From positions 496,001 to 560,000 of the forward strand of contig NZ_CP119106.1 in NCBI RefSeq assembly GCF_029643425.1: DNA of 64,000 nucleotides, written 5' to 3'. Numbering within the stretch: the stretch's first letter is position 1; every line of letters begins with the position of its first letter. The stretch comes from Isoptericola sp. AK164 (lineage in GTDB: Bacteria > Actinomycetota > Actinomycetes > Actinomycetales > Cellulomonadaceae). The notes beneath the pieces were generated by a model, which did no database searches, was not told the origin of the DNA, and saw nothing but the letters and a program-made list of their open reading frames with translations. A program made the translations under genes and the position numbers. Positions 2,527 to 57,278 of this stretch are shown here, in pieces.

Positions 2527-2579
2527 TCCTCCTCGAGCGCGGGCCGCGCGTCACCGTCGCGCGGCGGCACGCCGGGGTG

Positions 2580-2585
2580 CAGGAT
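2580..2585 (+). promoter_or_regulatory. -10-like CAGGAT of the LacI regulator
   Basis: CAGGAT lies exactly 6 nt before GTG 2592 and supports that start over GTG 2577. Confidence 0.4.
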
Positions 2586-2591
2586 GTCGGG

Positions 2592-3566
2592 GTGCCCACC
2601 GCCTCGCCCCGACCCCGACCGACGCTGCGCGACGTCGCCGCGACCGCCGGGGTGTCGAAGTCGCTGGTGTCACTGGCGCTGCGCGGCGACCCGGGCGTCT
2701 CCGAGAGCACCCGCGACCGCATCCTCGCCGTCGCCGAGCAGGTCGGCTACCGCCCCTCGCTCAGCGCCCGCACCCTCAAGCAGGGCCGGTCGATGCTGCT
2801 CGGCGTGGTCATCTCCAGCCTCGAGAACCCGTACCAGACCGAGATCGTCGCCTCCGTCGAGGACGCCGCCGAGCAGGTGGGGCTGTCCGTCGTCCTCGCC
2901 CACGGCTCGCGCGACCGCGGACGGCTCGCCGACCGGGTGCAGCAGCTCGGCGACCTCGGTGTCGACGGCCTCGTGGTGGTGTCGTCCTGGGTCCCCGACG
3001 AGGTGCTGACCGCGGCCGCGCGCCGGCTGCCGGTGGTCATGGTCGGGCGCACGGCGGACCCCGTGGCCGGCGTCGACTCCGTGACCAACGACGACGAGCA
3101 GGGTGCCGCTTTGGTGGTCGACCACCTCGTCGGCCGGGGGTACGAGCGGATCGCCCACGTGACGTCGTCGACCCGCCCCGCGGGCCTCGCCCGCCGTCGC
3201 GGGTACGAGGACGCGATGCGCCGCGCGGGGCTGGGCGACCACGTGCGTGTCGCGGCGCCGGACGCCGTCGACGGCCTGCTCGACGACGGCTACCGGGCGG
3301 TCTTCGCCCGCAACGACGTCGAGGCGTGCGACGTGCTCGACCGGGCGCTGGACCGGGGGTTGCGCGTCCCGGACGACGTCGCCGTCGTCGGGTACGACGA
3401 CACCCTGCTCGCGCGCCGGGTACGGCCCGCCCTCACCACGGTCCAGCAGCAGCGCGAGGTGATGGGTGAACGGGCCGTCGCGCTGCTCACCGGACGGCTC
3501 GGCGGGCGCACCGACGACGTGCACGAGGTGCTCGAGCCCCGGCTGGTGGTCCGCGCCTCGGGCTAA
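2592..3566 (+). CDS. LacI/GalR-family transcriptional regulator
   Basis: A 324-residue repressor. The N-terminal helix-turn-helix (TLRDVAATAGVSKSLVSLAL, about residues 11-30) is followed by the hinge region and a periplasmic-binding-like effector domain with LLGVVISSLENPYQTEIVASV and a typical C-terminal VAVVGYDDTLLARRVRPALTT segment. The second HTH residue set (SKSLVSLAL) departs from the common STVSRVL, hinting at a distinct operator. A perfect operator-like palindrome lies about 70 bp upstream. It is divergent from the HAD gene and convergent with the DinB-like gene across a 64-bp palindromic repeat. The effector is unknown; no sugar genes are adjacent. Confidence 0.9.
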   Translation: MPTASPRPRPTLRDVAATAGVSKSLVSLALRGDPGVSESTRDRILAVAEQVGYRPSLSARTLKQGRSMLLGVVISSLENPYQTEIVASVEDAAEQVGLSVVLAHGSRDRGRLADRVQQLGDLGVDGLVVVSSWVPDEVLTAAARRLPVVMVGRTADPVAGVDSVTNDDEQGAALVVDHLVGRGYERIAHVTSSTRPAGLARRRGYEDAMRRAGLGDHVRVAAPDAVDGLLDDGYRAVFARNDVEACDVLDRALDRGLRVPDDVAVVGYDDTLLARRVRPALTTVQQQREVMGERAVALLTGRLGGRTDDVHEVLEPRLVVRASG

Positions 3567-3576
3567 CCGCCGCACG

Positions 3577-3640
3577 CGTTGTGGGCATGAAATCTGCAGG
3601 TCCTCCCCGCGGAGGACCTGCAGATTTCATGCCCACAACG
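3577..3640. repeat. 64-bp palindromic repeat, copy 1
   Basis: Perfect inverted repeat of 30-nt arms (3577-3606 and 3611-3640) with loop CCGC. The outer 26 nt of each arm are identical to those of the element at 54750-54813. It sits between the convergent LacI and DinB-like genes. There is no U-tract, so a repeated extragenic palindrome is a better description than a standard terminator, although it could stop transcription from either side. Confidence 0.95.
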
Positions 3641-3677
3641 GCTGGTCGGGTCGGGTCGGGCAGCGTCGCCGGATGCC

Positions 3678-4220
3678 TCAGAGCCCCACGCGACCGTCGA
3701 TGCACTCGCGCAGCAGGTCCGCGTGGCCCATGTGACGGGCGTACTCCTCGACCATGTGGATGACGACGTCGCGCACCTCGACGGTCGCGTCGTCGAACGG
3801 GACCTCCCGGTCGAGGCTCTCGTCGACCATGAGCTCGTCGGCGGCGTCGACCGCCCGGTGCCAGGCCTCCCAGGCCTCGGCCACGGCCTCGGGGGTGCCG
3901 ACGGCCTCGTCGAACTCGACGTCCTCGACCCCGGGGCGCTCGAAGGGCCCGTCGGCGGTGGACCCGCCCAGGACGCGGGAGAACCAGTGGTGCTCGCCGT
4001 TGGCGAGGTGGCGCACGAGGCCGAGCAGGGACAGGGACGACGGGTACACGCTGCGGCGCGCCAGCTGGTCGGCGTCCAGACCCTCGCACTTCATCACGAG
4101 GGTCATCCGGTAGCGGCAGAGGTACTCCCAGAGGGTCTCCTTCTCGCCGACCGGGTCGATCCCGGTGGTGCGCGGATCCTTCTCGGGTGCTACCCACATG
4201 CCCGTCGTCGTCGATGTCAC
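3678..4220 (-). CDS. DinB-like (DUF664) four-helix-bundle protein
   Basis: About 180 residues. The sequence fits the DinB/YfiT-like putative metalloenzyme fold: an opening segment with KETLWEYLCRYRMTLVMKCEGL, then LLGLVRHLANGEHHWF and a late VVIHMVEEYARHMGHADLLRE. His residues in these three helices (in HLANGEHH and near EYARHMGHAD) are the usual metal ligands. Related actinobacterial proteins include mycothiol-dependent enzymes, but the substrate cannot be read from the sequence. I prefer GTG 4220 because CAGATT lies 6 nt upstream; ATG 4199 is the alternative and would remove seven residues. It is transcribed divergently from the anchored protein at 4325. Confidence 0.8.
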   Translation of the reverse strand: MTSTTTGMWVAPEKDPRTTGIDPVGEKETLWEYLCRYRMTLVMKCEGLDADQLARRSVYPSSLSLLGLVRHLANGEHHWFSRVLGGSTADGPFERPGVEDVEFDEAVGTPEAVAEAWEAWHRAVDAADELMVDESLDREVPFDDATVEVRDVVIHMVEEYARHMGHADLLRECIDGRVGL

Positions 4221-20129: not shown

Positions 20130-21710
20130 GTGAAATTCCCCGCACGCCGCACGCCCCCGCAGACCGACCTCCCGGCCTCCCGACGGATCGCCGCGCTGGC
20201 CGGGACCGTGGTCGCCGCGCTGGCTCTCGCCGGGTGCACGGCGGAGACGCCCGGCAAGACCGCGACGCCCGTGGACGAGGCGACGACGGCGGCGCCGATG
20301 ACGCCGTCGGCGGCCGGTGCCCCCGAGGGGTTCGAGGACTTCTACGCCCAGGACCTGGAGTGGACGGACTGCCGCGGCGGCTACGAGTGCGCGACCGCGA
20401 CGGCCCCGCTGTCCTGGGACGACGCGGAGGCGGGCAGCATCGAGCTCGCGCTGGTGCGGACGCGCGCCACCGGGGAGAAGGTCGGCTCGCTGCTGGTCAA
20501 CCCCGGCGGACCCGGCGGTTCGGGGGCGGACTTCGTCGAGAACGGGTCCTTCGGCGAGCCGCTGCGCGAGTCTTTCGACATCGTCGGCTTCGACCCGCGC
20601 GGGGTGCAGGACTCGACCGCCGTCGAGTGCTACGACGACGAGGCCAAGGACGAGTACCTCAGCGAAGACTTCGACCTGTCCACCGACGACGGTCTCGAGG
20701 CCGCGCGCGCGTCGACCGCGGCCTGGGCGGAGGCGTGCGCGGCGAACACCGGTGAGCTGCTCGGCGAGGTCGACACCCAGAGCGCGGCGAGGGACATGGA
20801 CCTGCTGCGCGCCGTGCTCGGCGACGAGCAGCTGCACTACCTCGGTTTCTCCTACGGCACGAGCCTGGGGGCGACATACGCGAGCCTCTTCCCCGAGCGT
20901 GCGGGCCGGCTGGTGCTCGACGGCGCGATCGACCCGACGCTGGACGCGGACGAGATCTCGGCCGGCCAGGCCGTCGGGTTCGAGAACGCGCTGCGCGCCT
21001 ACGTCACCGACTGCCAGGCCGGGGCCGACTGCCCGTTGACCGGGTCCGTCGACGCCGGCATGCAGCAGGTCCGCGACGTCCTGGACCGCGCCTACGACCG
21101 TCCCTACCCGACCAGCGGCGACCGGGACGTCACCCAGACGCTGGCCTTCTACGGGGTCGCGGTGACGCTGTACGCCGAGCAGAGCTGGCCGGTGCTCACC
21201 CAGGCGCTCGACGAGGCCATCAACGTCGGCACCGGGGACACGCTGCTGTACCTGGCGGACTTCTACAACGACCGCAACGCCGACGGCTCGTTCGCGACCA
21301 ACTCCACCGAGGCGTTCACGGCGATCAACTGCCTGGACAGCGCCGGCGCCACGGACCTCGAGACGATGCGGGCCGAGGCCGCCGAGATCGAGGAGGCGGC
21401 GCCCACGATGGGGTCGTTCTTCGGCTACGGCGGGCTGTCCTGCGCCGACTGGCCCTACCCGCCGGCCGAGCAGGAGTACGACGTCGCGGCGTCCGGGGCC
21501 GACCCGATCGTCGTCATCGGCACCACCAACGACCCGGCCACGCCGTACGTCTGGTCCGAGGGCATGGCCGACGCGCTCGACTCCGGGGTCCTGGTGACCT
21601 ACGAGGGGGAGGGACACACCGCCTACGGCCGGTCGAACGACTGCATCGCCGACGCCGTGGAGAACTACCTCGTCGAGGGCACGGTGCCCGAGGACGGCCT
21701 CACCTGCTGA
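20130..21710 (+). CDS. Lipoprotein alpha/beta hydrolase, tripeptidyl aminopeptidase (SlpD/E) type
   Basis: 526 residues. The lipobox LALAGC places the lipidated Cys near residue 35, so the enzyme faces outside. The proline-iminopeptidase-like catalytic core shows the oxyanion motif NPGGPGGSG, the nucleophile elbow GFSYGTSLGATYA (Ser near residue 248), and the TAP-like C-terminal domain with VVIGTTNDPATPY (acid) and GEGHTAYGRSNDC (His). Such proteins cleave N-terminal tripeptides or related peptides at the cell surface. It commonly follows tmk-holB in this group of actinobacteria. The stop is only 11 bp from the first 20-bp repeat unit. Confidence 0.92.
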   Translation: MKFPARRTPPQTDLPASRRIAALAGTVVAALALAGCTAETPGKTATPVDEATTAAPMTPSAAGAPEGFEDFYAQDLEWTDCRGGYECATATAPLSWDDAEAGSIELALVRTRATGEKVGSLLVNPGGPGGSGADFVENGSFGEPLRESFDIVGFDPRGVQDSTAVECYDDEAKDEYLSEDFDLSTDDGLEAARASTAAWAEACAANTGELLGEVDTQSAARDMDLLRAVLGDEQLHYLGFSYGTSLGATYASLFPERAGRLVLDGAIDPTLDADEISAGQAVGFENALRAYVTDCQAGADCPLTGSVDAGMQQVRDVLDRAYDRPYPTSGDRDVTQTLAFYGVAVTLYAEQSWPVLTQALDEAINVGTGDTLLYLADFYNDRNADGSFATNSTEAFTAINCLDSAGATDLETMRAEAAEIEEAAPTMGSFFGYGGLSCADWPYPPAEQEYDVAASGADPIVVIGTTNDPATPYVWSEGMADALDSGVLVTYEGEGHTAYGRSNDCIADAVENYLVEGTVPEDGLTC

Positions 21711-21720
21711 CCCCTCCGCC

Positions 21721-21860
21721 GAGGTAGGCAGCTCGTTGCCGCGGTAGGCCGGGTCGGGCCGAAGTAGGCGTTTCTCCGGCGAGGTAGGCAACCTTTCGCC
21801 CAGGTAGGCAACCTTCGGCCCAGGTAGGCAACCTTCGGCCGAGGTAGGCGATCGGCGCGC
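21721..21860. repeat. Tandem 20-bp repeats, cluster 1 (7 units)
   Basis: Seven units in exact 20-bp phase start at 21721, 21741, 21761, 21781, 21801, 21821 and 21841. The core GGTAGGC is kept in all; units 4-6 read almost identically (aggtaggcaaccttcggcc) and the outer units have decayed. The same unit occurs at 36986 and 42516. It fills the space between the peptidase gene and the tRNA promoter. Confidence 0.95.
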
Positions 21861-21915
21861 TCGGCGACGTGGCCCGGGCTGTGACGGATCCGACGACGGC
21901 GGCGCTCGGATCGCT

Positions 21916-36890: not shown

Positions 36891-36929
36891 CGAAGGCCCC
36901 GGAACCCCGCGAGGGTTCCGGGGCCTTCG
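36891..36929 (+). terminator. Strong hairpin after clpC
   Basis: Perfect 17-bp stem (36891-36907 with 36913-36929), loop CGCGA, no clear U-run. The arms begin CGAAGGCCCCGG. Confidence 0.8.
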
Positions 36930-36985
36930 TCGTGCCCGCGTCCGTACCCGGGCGCCCGGACCCCAGGACGCCAGGACCGGTCGCC

Positions 36986-37085
36986 GAGGTAGGCAACCTT
37001 CCGCCGAGGTAGGCAACCTTCCGCCGAGGTAGGCAACCTTCCGCCGAGGTAGGCAACCTTCCGGCCAGGTAGGCCGGGCCCTCGG
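36986..37085. repeat. Tandem 20-bp repeats, cluster 2 (5 units)
   Basis: Units start at 36986, 37006, 37026, 37046 and 37066. The first four read GAGGTAGGCAACCTTCCGCC almost identically and the fifth has decayed. The array ends 2 bp before the stop codon of the minus-strand oxygenase gene and follows the clpC terminator by about 55 bp. Confidence 0.96.
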
Positions 37086-37087
37086 GC

Positions 37088-38152
37088 TCACGTGCCCCGA
37101 TCGATCTGCGCGGCGACCTTCGCCGCATCGCGCCCGACGCCGTACAGGAACCCGGAGCCGTAGGCCGACTGGAAGGGCAGGCCGACGAAGAACAGACCCG
37201 GACTCCCGGTGGCGGCGCCGTCGACCTGCTCCGGCCACCCCGCCGCATCGATGCGGAGTGGCTCGACCCAGGTGTAGTCGTGCCGGTACCCGGTGCACCA
37301 GATGACGTTGGCCACGTCCAGGGCCCGGCCCGACGCCGTCATCGGCAGCCCGTCCTGCACCCCCACGACACGGTCATCGGTCCACTCGAGACGGTCGTCG
37401 GGTACCTCCCGGATCGATCGGAGCAGCTCGACCGGCAGCGGCTGGCCGTGGTCGCGCTCCGCCGCCCGGTACCGCCGCCCCAGCGGACTCCGCATGCTGA
37501 GCAGACGATTGCCGATGAACGGGATGAGCGGTGTCAGGGGACCGTTGCTGCGGAAGGGCATGTGGCCGGTGACCCTCCCGCACAGCGTGGTCGGGTGGGT
37601 CCGGGAGGCCTCGACGGCGATGTCCCCGCCGGACACCGCCGCGCCCACCACCAGGACCGGTCCGGCGGACAGCTGGCTCGGGCGCTGATACTCCGCGGAG
37701 TGCAGCTGGACGATGTCGTCGCCGAGCTCGGACGCGAACGACGGCACCCGGGGGTGCCGGGCCTTGCCCGTCGCGACGACGACGTGATCCGCGTGGATCG
37801 GCCCGTCCGGCGTGTCGGCGCGGAACCCGCCGTCGTGGCGGACGACGCGCTCGACGGTCACGCCGGTGCGCACCGCCAGCCCGTGCCGCGCGGCATAGGT
37901 GGCCAGGTAGTCGGCCACCTCGTCCTTGGTGGGTACGGACTTCCGGTCGCCGGGGAACGGCGAGCCCGGCAGCCCGATGATGCCCCGCGGGGTGAAGAGC
38001 CGCAGCGAGTCGTAGTGACGACGCCAGGTGTCGCCGACGCGGTCGGACCCGTCGACGACGAGAGCCTCGCGCCCCCGAGCCTGGAGATGGTACGCCGTGG
38101 ACAGTCCGGCCTGACCTGCACCGATGATCAGCGTCTCCGGGCGTTCGGTCAT
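37088..38152 (-). CDS. Flavin-dependent monooxygenase / NAD(P)-binding oxidoreductase (YUCCA/CzcO-like)
   Basis: 354 residues. Two dinucleotide-binding motifs are visible: FAD at LIIGAGQAGLSTAYHL (N-terminus) and NADPH at VLVVGAAVSGGDIAVEASR near residue 170. WRRHYDSLRLFTPRG and the late VIWCTGYRHDYTW (ATG/CTGY motif) match the class B flavoprotein monooxygenase group. HVVVATGKARHPRVP separates the two sites. Substrate unknown. ATG 38152 is preceded by GGGAG. The stop lies directly against the cluster 2 repeats. Confidence 0.88.
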   Translation of the reverse strand: MTERPETLIIGAGQAGLSTAYHLQARGREALVVDGSDRVGDTWRRHYDSLRLFTPRGIIGLPGSPFPGDRKSVPTKDEVADYLATYAARHGLAVRTGVTVERVVRHDGGFRADTPDGPIHADHVVVATGKARHPRVPSFASELGDDIVQLHSAEYQRPSQLSAGPVLVVGAAVSGGDIAVEASRTHPTTLCGRVTGHMPFRSNGPLTPLIPFIGNRLLSMRSPLGRRYRAAERDHGQPLPVELLRSIREVPDDRLEWTDDRVVGVQDGLPMTASGRALDVANVIWCTGYRHDYTWVEPLRIDAAGWPEQVDGAATGSPGLFFVGLPFQSAYGSGFLYGVGRDAAKVAAQIDRGT

Positions 38153-42490: not shown

Positions 42491-42515
42491 GCACCGGTCC
42501 GCCCGCCCCGCCCGC

Positions 42516-42625
42516 GAGGTAGGCAACCCTCCGCCGAGGTAGGCAACTTTCCCGCGAGGTAGGCACGGGTTCCTCGCCTACCTCGGCCCAGAGTTGCCTA
42601 CCTCGGCGGAGAGATTGCCTACCTC
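42516..42625. repeat. 20-bp repeats, cluster 3, units in both orientations
   Basis: Three forward units (GAGGTAGGC at 42516, 42536, 42556) are followed by three inverted units (GCCTACCTC at 42576, 42596, 42617). The two inner units form a hairpin with a 9-bp stem and an 11-nt loop (42556-42584). The array lies between kdgK and the leaderless promoter of the next gene. Confidence 0.95.
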
Positions 42626-52981: not shown

Positions 52982-53988
52982 TGGCAGTCACGCTGAACTC
53001 CGACGGCGCCGCGATGACCGGCTCGCGCGACGGCGTCGACCTGTTCACCTACGTCTACCGTCCGCACGACGTCCCCTACGAGAGCCCCCGGCCCTACCTG
53101 CACCCGCTGCGCACCCGCGGCGGCGACGTCGTGTCCGCCTACCGCCCGTGGGACCACGTCTGGCACAAGGGCATCGCCTGGTCGTTGCCGCACGTGGGGC
53201 CCTGGAACTTCTGGGGCGGGCCGAACTACGTCCGCGAGCAGGGCACCTACGTCGACCTCGACAACGACGGCTCGATGGAGCACGAGCAGTTCACCGCCCT
53301 GGGGCCGTGCGGCTTCACCGAGGAGCTCTCCTGGCGCACGCCCCCGGCCGCGGACGGGACGCCGGGCGAGGTCGTCGTGCGCGAGGAGCGCACGGTGCAG
53401 GTCGTGGTGCCCGACGACGCACCGGACGCCTGGGTGCTGACCTTCCGGTCGGTCATGACGAACGTCTCCGCCGGACCGCTCGACATCGGCAGCCCCACCA
53501 CGAACGGTCGCGAGAACGCCGGCTACGGGGGCCTGTTCTGGCGCGGGCCGCGCTCCTTCACCGAGGGGCAGGTCCTGGTGCCCACCGACGACGGTGGAGC
53601 GGCCGCGGCCGACGCCGAGGACGTCCGCGGGCTGCGGGCCGAGTGGCTGGGCTTCGTGGGCCGGCACGACGGCGAGGCGCCGAGCGCTGCGGGCGGCTCG
53701 CGGTCGTCCACCGTGGTCATGGTCGACCCCGGCTCCAACCCGGGGGGCACGCCGCAGTGGTTCGTGCGCTCGGTGCCCTTCGCGTGCGTGTGCCCGGCAC
53801 CGTTCTTCAGCCAGGAGGTGCCGTTCGCCGCGGGGCAGACCCTCACCTTCGACTACGCCGTGGTCGTCGCCGACGGCGCGGCGGACGGCGCGCGGGGTTC
53901 CGCGCTGGCCGCGCTCGGCCGGCACGTGCTGGCCGGCGAGGGCGCGGGGCTCGAGACCGGTCACGTGACGCCGGCGGGAGCCCGGTGA
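52981..53988 (+). CDS. DUF6807 / PmoA-family protein
   Basis: 335 residues with no signal peptide. Conserved blocks typical of PmoA-like proteins are PHDVPYESPRPYLHPLRT, WDHVWHKGIAWSLPHVG and NFWGGPNYV near the N-terminus, and ENAGYGGLFWRGPRSF in the middle. The His-rich beginning suggests metal or sugar binding. The family is common next to Gfo/Idh/MocA enzymes in polysaccharide loci, and its reaction is unknown. Start ATG shares a base with the upstream stop (TGATG); the following cupin gene overlaps by 4 bp. Confidence 0.85.
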   Translation: MAVTLNSDGAAMTGSRDGVDLFTYVYRPHDVPYESPRPYLHPLRTRGGDVVSAYRPWDHVWHKGIAWSLPHVGPWNFWGGPNYVREQGTYVDLDNDGSMEHEQFTALGPCGFTEELSWRTPPAADGTPGEVVVREERTVQVVVPDDAPDAWVLTFRSVMTNVSAGPLDIGSPTTNGRENAGYGGLFWRGPRSFTEGQVLVPTDDGGAAAADAEDVRGLRAEWLGFVGRHDGEAPSAAGGSRSSTVVMVDPGSNPGGTPQWFVRSVPFACVCPAPFFSQEVPFAAGQTLTFDYAVVVADGAADGARGSALAALGRHVLAGEGAGLETGHVTPAGAR

Positions 53989-54725
53989 CGGCTCCGCTCT
54001 TCCCGGGCGGGGTCGCCGTCAGCCACCTGCAGGTCTACGACTGGCCCGCCGACGACGCTCCGCAGGGCAGCGGCTCGCCGCACCTGCACACCACCTCCAC
54101 CGAGGCCTACGTGACGCTGGGCGGCCGCGGCCGGGTCGAGACGCTCGGCCCCGAGGGGTACGCGGTGCACGACCTGGCACCGGGCCGGATCGTCTGGTTC
54201 GGCCCCGGGGTGATCCACCGGGCGGTGAACCTCGGCGGGCTGGAGGTGCTGGTCGTGATGTCCAACGCCGGCCTGCCGGAGGCCGGGGACGCCGTCATCA
54301 CCTTCCCGGCCGACGTCGTCGCCGACCCGGAGCGGTACGCCGCGGCGGCCGCCCTGCCGCGGGTGGACGACGGCGCCACGGACGCGCAGGTCGCCGCGGC
54401 GGCCCGCGCGCGCCGGGACCTGGCGCTCGAGGGCTACGCCGCGCTGCGCGCCGCCGTCGAACGGGACGGACCGTCGGCCCTGGAGCCTCTGCACGCGGCG
54501 GCCGCGGACCTCGTCGCGCCCCGGACGAGCCGGTGGCGCGAGATCTGGGAGTCGTCGGTCGGGTCGGCCGCCGGGCAGACGGACTCCGCGCTGGAGGCGC
54601 TGGCCACGGCGTCGGCGGCCACGCTCGCCGACGGTCGGGTCGCGGCGCGCGACGCCCGGCCGGGGCCCCGCCGCTACGGCATGTGCGGACGCCTGCAGAC
54701 CTGGCCGCTCACCCCGTCGGACTGA
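53985..54725 (+). CDS. Cupin-domain protein
   Basis: 246 residues. An N-terminal cupin barrel shows SGSPHLHTTSTEAYVTLGGRG (metal-binding His-x-His and Glu) and GRIVWFGPGVIHRAVN (the second motif with His). The C-terminal 120 residues are Ala-rich and helical, ending with CGRLQTWPLTPSD. No enzyme class can be assigned. GTG 53985 overlaps the PmoA-like stop (GTGA), so the three genes are translated as a unit. The gene ends 25 bp before the second 64-bp palindrome. Confidence 0.8.
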   Translation: MTAPLFPGGVAVSHLQVYDWPADDAPQGSGSPHLHTTSTEAYVTLGGRGRVETLGPEGYAVHDLAPGRIVWFGPGVIHRAVNLGGLEVLVVMSNAGLPEAGDAVITFPADVVADPERYAAAAALPRVDDGATDAQVAAAARARRDLALEGYAALRAAVERDGPSALEPLHAAAADLVAPRTSRWREIWESSVGSAAGQTDSALEALATASAATLADGRVAARDARPGPRRYGMCGRLQTWPLTPSD

Positions 54726-54749: not shown

Positions 54750-54813
54750 CGTTGTGGGCATGAAATCTGCAGGTCAGGACCGGTCCTGACCTGCAGATTT
54801 CATGCCCACAACG
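54750..54813. repeat. 64-bp palindromic repeat, copy 2
   Basis: Fully self-complementary (centre between 54781 and 54782). The outer 26 nt equal those of the 3577-3640 element; the inner 6 nt (AGGACC) differ from copy 1 (CTCC plus loop) but stay complementary. It lies between the convergent cupin and GH42 genes. Confidence 0.96.
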
Positions 54814-54863: not shown

Positions 54864-56936
54864 TCAGGCGCCGGACGTCTGCCGGACCACCCGCACCGCG
54901 CCGCCCGGCACGGTCAGCGCACCGTCCACCGTCGTCCCGCTCAGCAGCTCCGCACCCGAGACGCCGTCGAGCACGGCCTCGTCGTCGCCGTGGTTGATCG
55001 CGAAGAGCCAGGAGGTCCGCCCGTCGTCGGCGTACCGGTGGACGACCTCGACGCCGGCGGGCGCCGCGACGTCGGGCAGCACCCCGGCCTCCTCGGCGAG
55101 CCGTCCGGCCAGCGCCGCCGTCCCGGCCTCGTCCAGGCGGGTCCCGACGTACCAGGCGGTGCCGGTCCCCACGGCTCGACGGGTGACCGCGGGCCGTCCG
55201 GCGAGCGCGCCGTCGTCGTAGGCGGCGACCGCCTCCGTGCCCGGGGCGAGGTGGGTCTTCTCGCTCCACAGGTCGGCGCGGGCCTCGCCGTCGACGGCCT
55301 TGCCGGAGACCTGGAGTCGCTCGTCGACCTGGAGGGGGTAGAACTCCTCGGTGCGGACGCCGAGCAGGTCGCGGAACGCCCCGGGGTAGCCGCCGAGCCG
55401 CACCTGGTCGTGCGGGTCGACGATGCCGGAGAAGAACGTGACGACCACGGTGGCACCCTGCTCGGCGGCCGTGGCGAGGGCGTCGGCCCCGGCGTCGTCG
55501 ACCAGGTAGAGCGTCGGGACGACGACCAGCTCGTAGCCGTCGAGGTCGCTGCGGGGGCTCACCAGGTCGACCGTGACGCCGTGCTGCCACAGCGCGGCGT
55601 ACCAGGACCGCACCTCGGCCATGTAGTCGAGGTCCTGCGTCGGGTGGGAGTCGAGCTCGGCCGCCCACCAGGCGGGATAGTCGACGACGATCGCGGCGCG
55701 GGAGCGCACGCGGGAGCCACGGACCTCGCCGAGTCGGCGCAGCACCCGGCCGAGCTCGACCGTGTTGCGCCAGACGTCGGTGTCCTCGCCCGCGTGCGGG
55801 ACCATCGCCGAGTGGAACTTCTCGGCCCCGGCCCGGGAGGCGCGCCACTGGAAGAACATCACGGAGTCGGCTCCGCGGGCGACGTGCTGCAGCGAGTTCC
55901 GCAGCATCTCGCCGGGGAGCTTGCTGCGGTTGCGGTGCTGCCAGTTGACCGCCGAGGTCGAGTGCTCCATGAGGATCCACGGGTCGCCGCCGGCCACGCC
56001 CCGGGCCAGGTCGGCCGACAGGGCCAGCTCGACGTGCCGGTCCCGGTCGGCGGCGATCGTGTAGTGGTCGTTCGCCACGACGTCGAGGTCGTCCGCCCAC
56101 GAGTAGTAGTCCATGCCCTTGGTGGTGGACGTCGTCATGAGGTTCGTCGTCGTGGGCACGTGCGGGGTGATCTCGCGCAGGGTGTCGCGCAGGTCCCGGT
56201 AGTAGCCCAGCAGCGCGTCCGAGCTGAACCGGTCGAAGTCGAGCTGCTGGGTGGGGTTGCTCGACATCGGGGCGACCAGCGGGGGCAGGACGTCGTCGAA
56301 CGTCGCGTAGCGCTGCGACCAGAAGGCCGTGCCCCAGGCCTCGTTGAGGGCGTCGACGGTCCCGTAGCGCTCGGCGAGCCAGACGCGGAACGCCGCCGCC
56401 GCGCTGTCCGAGTAGTCGCGCGGGACGTGGCACCCGATCTCGTTGTCGACGTGCCACAGCGCCAGCGCCGGGTGCTCGCCGTACCGTTCGGCCATGCGGG
56501 TCGCCATGCGCAGGGCGTACTCGCGGTGCAGCGGGTGCGTGACGGCGTAGGCCTGACGGGCGCCCTGGTGCAGCACGGTCCCGTCGGCGCGGCGCGGCAG
56601 GATCTCCGGGTGCTTGCGGGTGAGCCACGGCGGCGGCGAGGCCGTGGCGGTCGCCAGCGCCACCTGGACACCGTTCGCGTGCAGGCGGTCCATGGTCTCG
56701 TCGAGCCAGGTCCAGTCCAGCTCGCCCTCGCGCGGCTCGATCGTGGCCCACGAGAAGATCGCGACGCTGAGGATGTTGACCCCGGCCTCGCGCATCAGGC
56801 GCAGGTCGTCCTGCCGGACGTCGTCGGGCCACTGCTCCGGGTTGTAGTCCCCGCCGTAGCCCAGGCCGTCGACCCGCGCGTTCCACGGGCGGACGGCGGC
56901 GGGGTCGAAGGGGGGAGGAGTCACGCGTCGTTGCAT
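54864..56936 (-). CDS. GH42 beta-galactosidase
   Basis: 690 residues, the usual GH42 length, without signal peptide, so intracellular. The acid/base Glu is in WHVDNEIGCH (E166 by my count) and the nucleophile in WILMEHSTSAVNW (E324). GYGGDYNPEQWP opens the barrel domain. The C-terminal trimerisation and beta domains (FFSGIVDPHDQVRLGGYPG onward) are present. In this locus, galactan side chains of rhamnogalacturonan-I are the likely substrate. ATG 56936 lies 7 nt after CACACT, and a LacI-type operator lies just upstream. An in-frame start 105 bp earlier is not needed. Confidence 0.95.
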   Translation of the reverse strand: MQRRVTPPPFDPAAVRPWNARVDGLGYGGDYNPEQWPDDVRQDDLRLMREAGVNILSVAIFSWATIEPREGELDWTWLDETMDRLHANGVQVALATATASPPPWLTRKHPEILPRRADGTVLHQGARQAYAVTHPLHREYALRMATRMAERYGEHPALALWHVDNEIGCHVPRDYSDSAAAAFRVWLAERYGTVDALNEAWGTAFWSQRYATFDDVLPPLVAPMSSNPTQQLDFDRFSSDALLGYYRDLRDTLREITPHVPTTTNLMTTSTTKGMDYYSWADDLDVVANDHYTIAADRDRHVELALSADLARGVAGGDPWILMEHSTSAVNWQHRNRSKLPGEMLRNSLQHVARGADSVMFFQWRASRAGAEKFHSAMVPHAGEDTDVWRNTVELGRVLRRLGEVRGSRVRSRAAIVVDYPAWWAAELDSHPTQDLDYMAEVRSWYAALWQHGVTVDLVSPRSDLDGYELVVVPTLYLVDDAGADALATAAEQGATVVVTFFSGIVDPHDQVRLGGYPGAFRDLLGVRTEEFYPLQVDERLQVSGKAVDGEARADLWSEKTHLAPGTEAVAAYDDGALAGRPAVTRRAVGTGTAWYVGTRLDEAGTAALAGRLAEEAGVLPDVAAPAGVEVVHRYADDGRTSWLFAINHGDDEAVLDGVSGAELLSGTTVDGALTVPGGAVRVVRQTSGA

Positions 56937-56943
56937 GCCGACC

Positions 56944-56949
56944 AGTGTG
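56944..56949 (-). promoter_or_regulatory. -10-like CACACT of the GH42 gene
   Basis: CACACT on the minus strand, 7 nt before ATG 56936. Confidence 0.35.
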
Positions 56950-56951
56950 CC

Positions 56952-56965
56952 ATAAATCGATTCAA
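56952..56965. promoter_or_regulatory. LacI-type operator before GH42
   Basis: TTGAATCGATTTAT on the minus strand, next to the -10. It matches sites at 47782 and 62283. A further half-like TGGAACGATCC starts at 56969. Confidence 0.65.
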
Positions 56966-57278
56966 AAATGGAACGATCCGAGGGCGGGTCCTCGTGCCCG
57001 ACCCGTTTCGGCTGACGCGGCGGGGGGTCCGTGCTGGTCATCGGGAGACCGATCCGCGATGGTCAGCGGGTGAAATATCGCTCCTGGTCACGGGTTCGGG
57101 GTCGCCGACGTTCCGGCGAAAAGCCTGCGATGCCGGGCAGAAGAGACACAGAGTGCCTGTCATGCCTTATCACTGCACGGTAACGGTCGTCGCAGCGGGC
57201 TACCGCCGACGGGTCCCGCTCCCATAGGCTGCCCGCGCCGTCTCTCCACGACAAGCCCCTGAGAGTGAGTTCCCAGCG
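56966..57278. other. Divergent intergenic region between GH42 and the surface protein
   Basis: About 310 bp without a credible gene. It holds a short inverted repeat (ATCGG...CCGAT near 57040), a -10-like TAGGCT near 57226 suited to the downstream gene, and a run less GC-rich than the coding sequence. Confidence 0.6.

Follow-up and report, generated by a model that had tools for sequence, protein, structure and literature searches.

A family of constant-length palindromes with conserved arms and covarying cores at gene 3′ ends in Isoptericola

The genome of Isoptericola sp. AK164 (G000) harbors a family of about 63 extragenic palindromes of nearly constant length that lie mostly behind genes, have cores that covary from copy to copy, are in many cases inherited in place between species, and rarely share a convergent junction with a second hairpin. 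The family may well be a set of dispersed hairpins, conserved as a family, at which transcription arriving from either side stops behind genes, chiefly where two genes converge; this reading has about an even chance of being correct. No published description of this palindrome family was found in the literature searched, in which subscription journals are sparsely covered. The window, the whole stretch of 64,000 nucleotides that was analysed, comprises bases 496001-560000 of a genome assembled as a single contig of 3,576,703 bp.

The palindrome and its copies in the AK164 genome

The window contains two 64-bp elements, at 3577-3640 and 54750-54813, with the identical 26-nt outer arm CGTTGTGGGCATGAAATCTGCAGGTC, as the preliminary description had reported (Table 1). 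Both were also said to be perfectly self-complementary, which is true of copy 2 (32/32 pairs), whereas copy 1 has one mismatch near its centre (31/32). The folding energies of the two copies are -61.2 and -59.0 kcal/mol (z ~ -14, 0 of 200 shuffles each). The flanking genes are convergent at both places, with ends at 3566/3678 and 54725/54864, and no transposase family was found near either copy among the seven genes checked around both, two of which have no Pfam match; both statements agree with the earlier account. An Rfam search of the window returned tRNA only.

Table 1. Coordinates of the two palindromic elements in the window and of their neighbouring genes
Feature	Position	Strand	Basis or remark
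LacI-family regulator gene; stop codon 10 nt before copy 1	2577..3566	+	
Palindromic element copy 1, 64 bp, 31/32 pairs	3577..3640	.	Sequence, pairing, folding
Copy 1 left arm, 26 nt	3577..3602	+	Outer TGTGGGC end common to sister types in two further genera
Copy 1 segment unlike copy 2 (centre of variable core)	3603..3614	.	Copy 1 vs copy 2 sequence
Copy 1 right arm, 26 nt	3615..3640	-	Sequence
DinB/mycothiol-S-transferase-like gene, convergent, ends 37 nt after copy 1	3678..4199	-	
Cupin-domain gene, ends 24 nt before copy 2	53985..54725	+	
Palindromic element copy 2, 64 bp, 32/32 pairs	54750..54813	.	Sequence, pairing, folding
GH42 beta-galactosidase gene, convergent, ends 50 nt after copy 2	54864..57041	-	

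A search of the whole genome for the arm, allowing up to three mismatches, gave 61 matches per strand and none for a reversed-pattern control, which excludes the possibility that only the two window copies exist. The strict full-palindrome pattern has 48 matches, and a covariance model has 126 over the two strands, or ~63 copies. The proposed family of repeated extragenic palindromes is thus borne out, with 59 of the ~63 copies read; the model matches at 799522 and 3034128 are among those left out. The unit is 63 or 64 bp long, runs from CGY to RCG and consists of CGYTGTGGGCRTGAAAT.TGCAG, 17-18 nt and the mirror of the first part; the length from TGT to ACA is 57 in 13 copies and 58 in 46. Throughout the 59 copies the outer arms are near-invariant, the middle 17-18 nt vary and the boundaries of the unit are constant, with inverted ends of the kind that characterises miniature inverted-repeat elements (MITEs). 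Extra outward pairs extend a few copies, for example L086 and the copy at a pyrE-like junction in another genome of the genus (G001).

Two neighbouring copies ~1.1 kb apart (L069:11641-11704 and L069:12801-12864) have the left core half AGTCGACAC in common and differ in the right half, which suggests local exchange. A separate intergenic repeat family of the same genome consists of 20-nt tandem repeats (GCCGAGGTAGGCAACCTTCC) past gene ends, at positions 21698-21869, 36943-37094 and 42493-42625 of the window; those at 42493-42625 form a large inverted pair.

Position at gene ends and pairing of the core

The family is concentrated at gene 3′ ends. In G000, the 59 copies divide into 36 at convergent junctions, 19 at tandem ones, two at divergent ones (one of these two is also present in G013) and two inside called genes. 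The 393 baseline junctions, taken from 464 kb of G000 (the window and 20 spread 20-kb stretches), comprise 69 convergent, 254 tandem and 70 divergent cases (Fisher p 1.6e-11 vs the elements). Genes for all junction classes were called with a simple in-house caller, and a false element at position 2066 of L044 was excluded from the counts. Convergent, tandem, divergent and in-gene copies number 19, 13, 1 and 1 of 34 in I. sediminis JC619 (G013), 8, 7, 0 and 2 of 17 in G001, and 7, 3, 1 and 1 of 12 in G017, the 12 being a sample for position and length from 25 copies with exact ends. The median distance to the stop codon is 24 nt in G000 (n=91), 12 in G013 (n=51), 21 in G001 (n=23) and 9 in G017 (n=17). 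By the gene calls, the TGA of the arm is itself the stop codon in four copies (one in G000, two in G013, one in G017). The TGA of TGTGGGCRTGA is apparently the stop codon of the adjacent gene in L080, L134, L138 and L183.

The cores vary in sequence and largely retain their complementarity. Among 1770 cells (30 pairs in 59 copies), 92.3% are paired, compared with 83.2% in shuffles; 183 cells carry a double change, compared with 74 in shuffles, and both sides have changed in 17 of the 30 pairs. Left halves from G000 fold to a mean of -52.4 kcal/mol with their own right half and to -42.0 kcal/mol with the right halves of other copies (0 of 5000 permutations). The same advantage of the own half is present in G013, G001 and Isoptericola sp. 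BMS4 (G014; 0 of 5000 permutations each) and in I. halotolerans (G006) and G007 taken together (2 of 5000). It is less pronounced in G017 (71 of 5000), and nine copies from an uncultured Isoptericola (G012) do not show it (907 of 5000). Because the cores covary, the fold matters in addition to the sequence, as had been proposed from compensatory change between the two window copies. The expectation that cores elsewhere would be complementary holds for most copies; some are poorly paired, such as L048 and L049, the latter at -36.1 kcal/mol.

Mispairs offer a test for selection at the level of RNA. In Bacillus cereus terminators, G-U intermediates are favoured over A-C (PMC5381666). In the 42 tandem copies of the family, the test for an excess of G-U is negative, with 69 G-U and 63 A-C mispairs (p 0.66; 45 and 34 in the core alone, 24 and 29 in the arms). 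With the two classes nearly equal, nothing indicates that selection acts on RNA pairing alone.

Inheritance in place and sister types across species

Many copies occupy the same place in different species. In G013, 28 of the 34 elements correspond to a G000 element whose 600-bp flanks are collinear on both sides (mean identity of the flanks 87.3%), and a collinear G000 element exists for 7 of 17 G001 copies (84.2% flank identity) and 4 of 12 G017 copies (79.9%). Seen from G000, 34 of its 59 copies are matched by an element among those read in G013, G001 and G017; these sharing counts are lower bounds, as the finder missed the G013 element (in L153) at the pyrE-like junction. Orthologous cores are alike at 7.75 of 16 bases and non-orthologous cores at 6.24 (3 of 10000 permutations), which demonstrates common descent. 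The alternative raised earlier, that the palindrome is copied as a unit, needs refinement: with many copies inherited in place, the family is not simply the result of a recent spread of identical units.

The excess identity of orthologous cores is nevertheless low, at 0.08 over the whole core and 0.20 in the left half, and comparable to that of adjoining intergenic bases, which ranges from 0.04 to 0.20. Unconstrained sequence at the element junctions is thus near saturation, whereas the arms and a large part of the pairing have been retained. This retention is the main argument for function, and the unit seems to be kept by selection.

Within the genus, matches by the model occur in 11 of 18 genomes and exact ends in 10 of 18 (G000, G013, G001, G006, G007, G010, G011, G012, G014 and G017), with G010 represented by a single odd match; neither search gave a match in G002, G004 or G009, and copies are numerous in G000, G013, G017, G012 and G014. 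Several draft contigs of G013 (C14, C22, C23, C28 and C30) start or stop within partial model matches of the palindrome. Assemblies thus seem to break there, and drafts may undercount copies. In an order-wide sample of 396 genomes, which contained no genome of the genera g7 or g8, nine had a match, seven of them from this genus and the other two with one odd match each. Single matches in G010 (47 nt), G438 (47 nt) and G558 (64 nt) and a match in a Clostridia MAG contig (L105) were set aside as chance.

Other species of the genus, as well as two more genera of the same taxonomic family (g7 and g8), have palindromes with the same TGTGGGC..GCCCACA ends and other interiors. The interiors resemble ATTTCTGGCCCG in G006, G007, G012 and G017, GAGTTTGGCGCTATTCC in G014, GATCGTTGCGCCTAAAACGG in G063 and G130 (among the matches listed) and ATGGGCCCGGTT in G064, G109, G121 and G126. 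As these searches required TGTGGGC ends, the extent of end variation is not shown by them; the G013 copy at the pyrE-like junction has the end CGTGGGT. Among the family members read, with 42-72 allowed, the length from TGT to ACA is 55-58 or 67-70 and never 59-66; lengths in G006, G007, G012 and G014 were read by eye, those in G063 and G130 are from among the matches listed, and G125 was left out. The cores in G063 and G130, both of genus g7, are asymmetric and largely conserved between copies (CCTAAAACGGGC..GTAGT), in contrast with the variable, mostly palindromic cores of G000.

Different length types can occupy one junction. Between a pyrE-like and a HAD-hydrolase-like gene, both named from sequence resemblance, elements of two length classes are present in six species. 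In G000 and G013 the element is 64 bp long and has AAATCTGC arms, and in G006, G007 and G012 it is of a 74-75 bp type; the G001 element falls in the latter length class and has different arms (TGTGGGCGCACTCCGTGG; TGT..ACA 69). The same junction has almost no spacer and no element in G003 and other sequence in G017. In a sample of 36 elements taken from other species, nine are at a junction that is also occupied in G000, G013, G001 or G017. Three loci (L091, L102 and L090) were left out of this sample since they have no element under the end pattern, and the model matches in G005, G007 and G008 may therefore include other hairpins. All four G000-G017 orthologous pairs found differ in length, and window copy 2 has a 75-bp counterpart in G017. 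The two genes flanking window copy 1 were not found adjacent in G013, G001, G003 or G017. The switch of length type at shared junctions may reflect either exchange of the interior in place or independent refilling.

A possible role in 3′-end formation and competing explanations

Ordinary hairpins are frequent where the element is absent. Among the 34 element-free convergent junctions of G000 whose gap measures 40 nt or more, 15 have an ordinary near-perfect hairpin (13-27 bp stem), none of which is followed within 10 nt by more than three T in a row. In contrast, convergent junctions that carry the element seldom have a second hairpin (3 of 36, p 0.0008). The difference is weaker when junctions are matched at 60 nt or more of remaining spacer (3 of 18 vs 14 of 30, p 0.06), and there is no clear difference at tandem junctions (2 of 19 with the element vs 18 of 112 without). 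The scarcity of second hairpins suggests that the element does the job of the ordinary ones. In GC-rich actinobacteria such hairpins are interpreted as U-less terminators or the 3′ ends of Rho-dependent transcripts (PMC8269248). The sequences of the 15 ordinary hairpins are mostly unrelated. Two of the ordinary convergent junctions (L278 near 1670 and L291 near 2750) have near-perfect hairpins of 26-27 bp and unrelated sequence, possibly other palindrome families. A near-identical stem (GAAGGCCCCGGAACCC..GGGTTCCGGGGCCTTC) recurs in the ordinary convergent hairpins at window 36891-36929 and L286 near 745, so some ordinary hairpins may also be repeated.

A canonical intrinsic (Rho-independent, U-tract) terminator was ruled out: TTT occurs in none of the 91 sense-strand flanks of 15 nt, which are G-rich. 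With no T-tract, and no terminator-like site found by a search of window 3300-3900, classical intrinsic termination is not expected. The elements instead show the arrangement of I-shaped or bidirectional terminators, a strong hairpin without a U-tract within tens of nucleotides of a stop codon and, in 36 of 59 copies, between opposed genes. A well-paired copy, transcribed from either strand, folds into a stem of ~30 bp and seems to stand in for the ordinary GC-rich hairpin, likewise free of a T-tract, of other G000 convergent junctions. There it may terminate transcription, or block read-through and 3′ decay. The near-invariant arms could be read by a sequence-specific DNA- or RNA-binding factor or could be the footprint of a past spreading mechanism, and the core would be constrained solely in length and pairing. 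The terminator or RNA-processing role suggested at the outset thus fits the position at 3′ ends and the scarcity of neighbouring hairpins, the role itself being inferred from position and structure, and receives no support from the mispair test. A fixed arm sequence of 23-26 nt goes beyond the needs of a terminator alone and counts against the plain terminator reading, as do the nine G012 copies with no folding advantage of the own half and the two G000 copies between divergent genes; the constant arms call for a factor that reads them or for descent from a spreading unit.

The strongest rival, though an unlikely one, is a protein-binding site on double-stranded DNA, whether for a nucleoid protein, gyrase, a roadblock or an insulator. 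A dimer would grip the TGTGGGC ends on the same helical face, and the RNA hairpin would be secondary. Such a site would account for an outer TGTGGGC end that is common to three genera (in searches that required it) while the interiors differ, for two length modes about one helical turn apart, and for a G-U bias that is not significant. Positive supercoiling, moreover, meets at convergent positions. Binding at the ends has no need of a self-complementary core, however, and the core covaries strongly; the phasing evidence is also thin, with two modes from few lineages and a spread of 3-4 nt within a mode.

Similarly doubtful is a MITE- or REP-like miniature element, either fossil or still mobile, which would spread in palindromic form and come to rest behind genes without doing harm. 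Its constant length and ends, and flanks with little or no locus-specific complementarity, are what such an element would leave. The occupation of one junction in different species by related types that agree in their ends and not in their interiors also points this way, as do differences in presence or absence (e.g. L040, which has no counterpart element in G001). Similar cores are in excess within G000, with 17 pairs at 13 or more of 16 matches against 4.4 expected and at most 10 in 200 shuffles, and the ends presumably resemble the 8-bp terminal repeat of Tn7. Against mobility stand the copies inherited in place in G013 and the consideration that the arms of a neutral fossil would not be retained in surroundings that have become saturated. 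Moreover, exact direct repeats of 4-10 nt outside CGY..RCG flank none of 110 elements, although old copies could have lost such target-site duplications; 2-nt direct repeats flank 15 elements, with 6.9 expected. The Y1/RAYT transposase (PF01797) is absent from all 18 genus genomes, while control rings were positive in 5 of 14, which rules out a REP/RAYT element. Nor is a phage or plasmid origin supported, as copy 1 has no blastn match at E up to 0.01 in phage and plasmid collections. A loose pattern does match in 15 viral contigs, with lengths scattered over 43-71 nt and mostly unpaired interiors (L258 pairs 18/21).

Least probable of the three, and very much so, is a self-maintaining palindrome in which template-switch repair copies mutations from arm to arm and complementarity persists without selection. 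The roughly equal G-U and A-C mispairs and a core that is free to change and often still paired would agree with this process, but in the G000-G013 comparison many core pairs (101 of 245) lack pairing in one of the two orthologues. Template switching also leaves the conservation of the arms, the position after genes and the fixed length unexplained, and should propagate insertions and deletions too, although each type has a nearly uniform length. Insertion of the element into a hairpin already in place was ruled out, since the two flanks of a copy complement each other scarcely better than flanks exchanged between copies (lowest permutation counts: G000 convergent copies, 30 nt, 78 of 2000; G001 tandem copies, 12 nt, 145 of 2000; the rest higher).

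Known systems share some of these properties. REP and BIME sequences, which depend on RAYT transposases, are repeated extragenic palindromes at gene 3′ ends and resemble the family in this respect; they differ in that the present genomes lack the Y1 transposase and that the unit here is 63-75 bp long, often almost perfect and usually single at a junction. MITEs, including the SPRITE element of Streptococcus pneumoniae (PMC10969869), are likewise short intergenic units with inverted ends. In contrast to them, the present elements have no direct repeats that were found, are palindromic almost throughout, are inherited in place and have arms that outlast their flanks. In the terminators built from uptake sequences in Neisseria and Pasteurellaceae, a conserved sequence likewise acts as an inverted pair (PMC1852404). 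Uptake sequences, however, exist as about a thousand single copies, whereas the much longer arms here are paired; a DNA uptake sequence was rejected, as there is no excess of single arms and 59 pairs among the 61 forward and 61 reverse arms were read as palindromes. A further parallel is with the I-shaped, bidirectional U-less 3′ ends of Streptomyces clavuligerus, which are strong GC-rich hairpins at gene 3′ ends that sometimes serve opposed genes (PMC8269248). Unlike the U-less actinobacterial terminators described there, dozens of the present elements have near-identical outer 23-26 nt, a stem of ~30 bp and a fixed length.

A more speculative possibility, which we regard as improbable, is a clade-specific 3′-end system. 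Fixed junctions would serve as docking sites for a sequence-specific factor, which would detect the constant TGTGGGC ends at a spacing of whole helical turns. Interiors would be exchanged or re-evolve in concert across many loci when species diverge, as from the 64-bp to the 75-bp type at the same junction, and the ends with the self-complementary middle would form a bidirectional, factor-dependent stop.

Constant ends combined with species-specific interiors at the same junctions raise the question of concerted evolution for short non-coding units, a question that mobility of the RAYT type cannot answer in the Isoptericola family. Terminators of GC-rich bacteria are hard to define because many have no T-tract. 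With its near-invariant arm, its fixed length and the natural variation of its core across dozens of orthologous junctions, the family provides a ready comparative experiment on what such a 3′ end needs.
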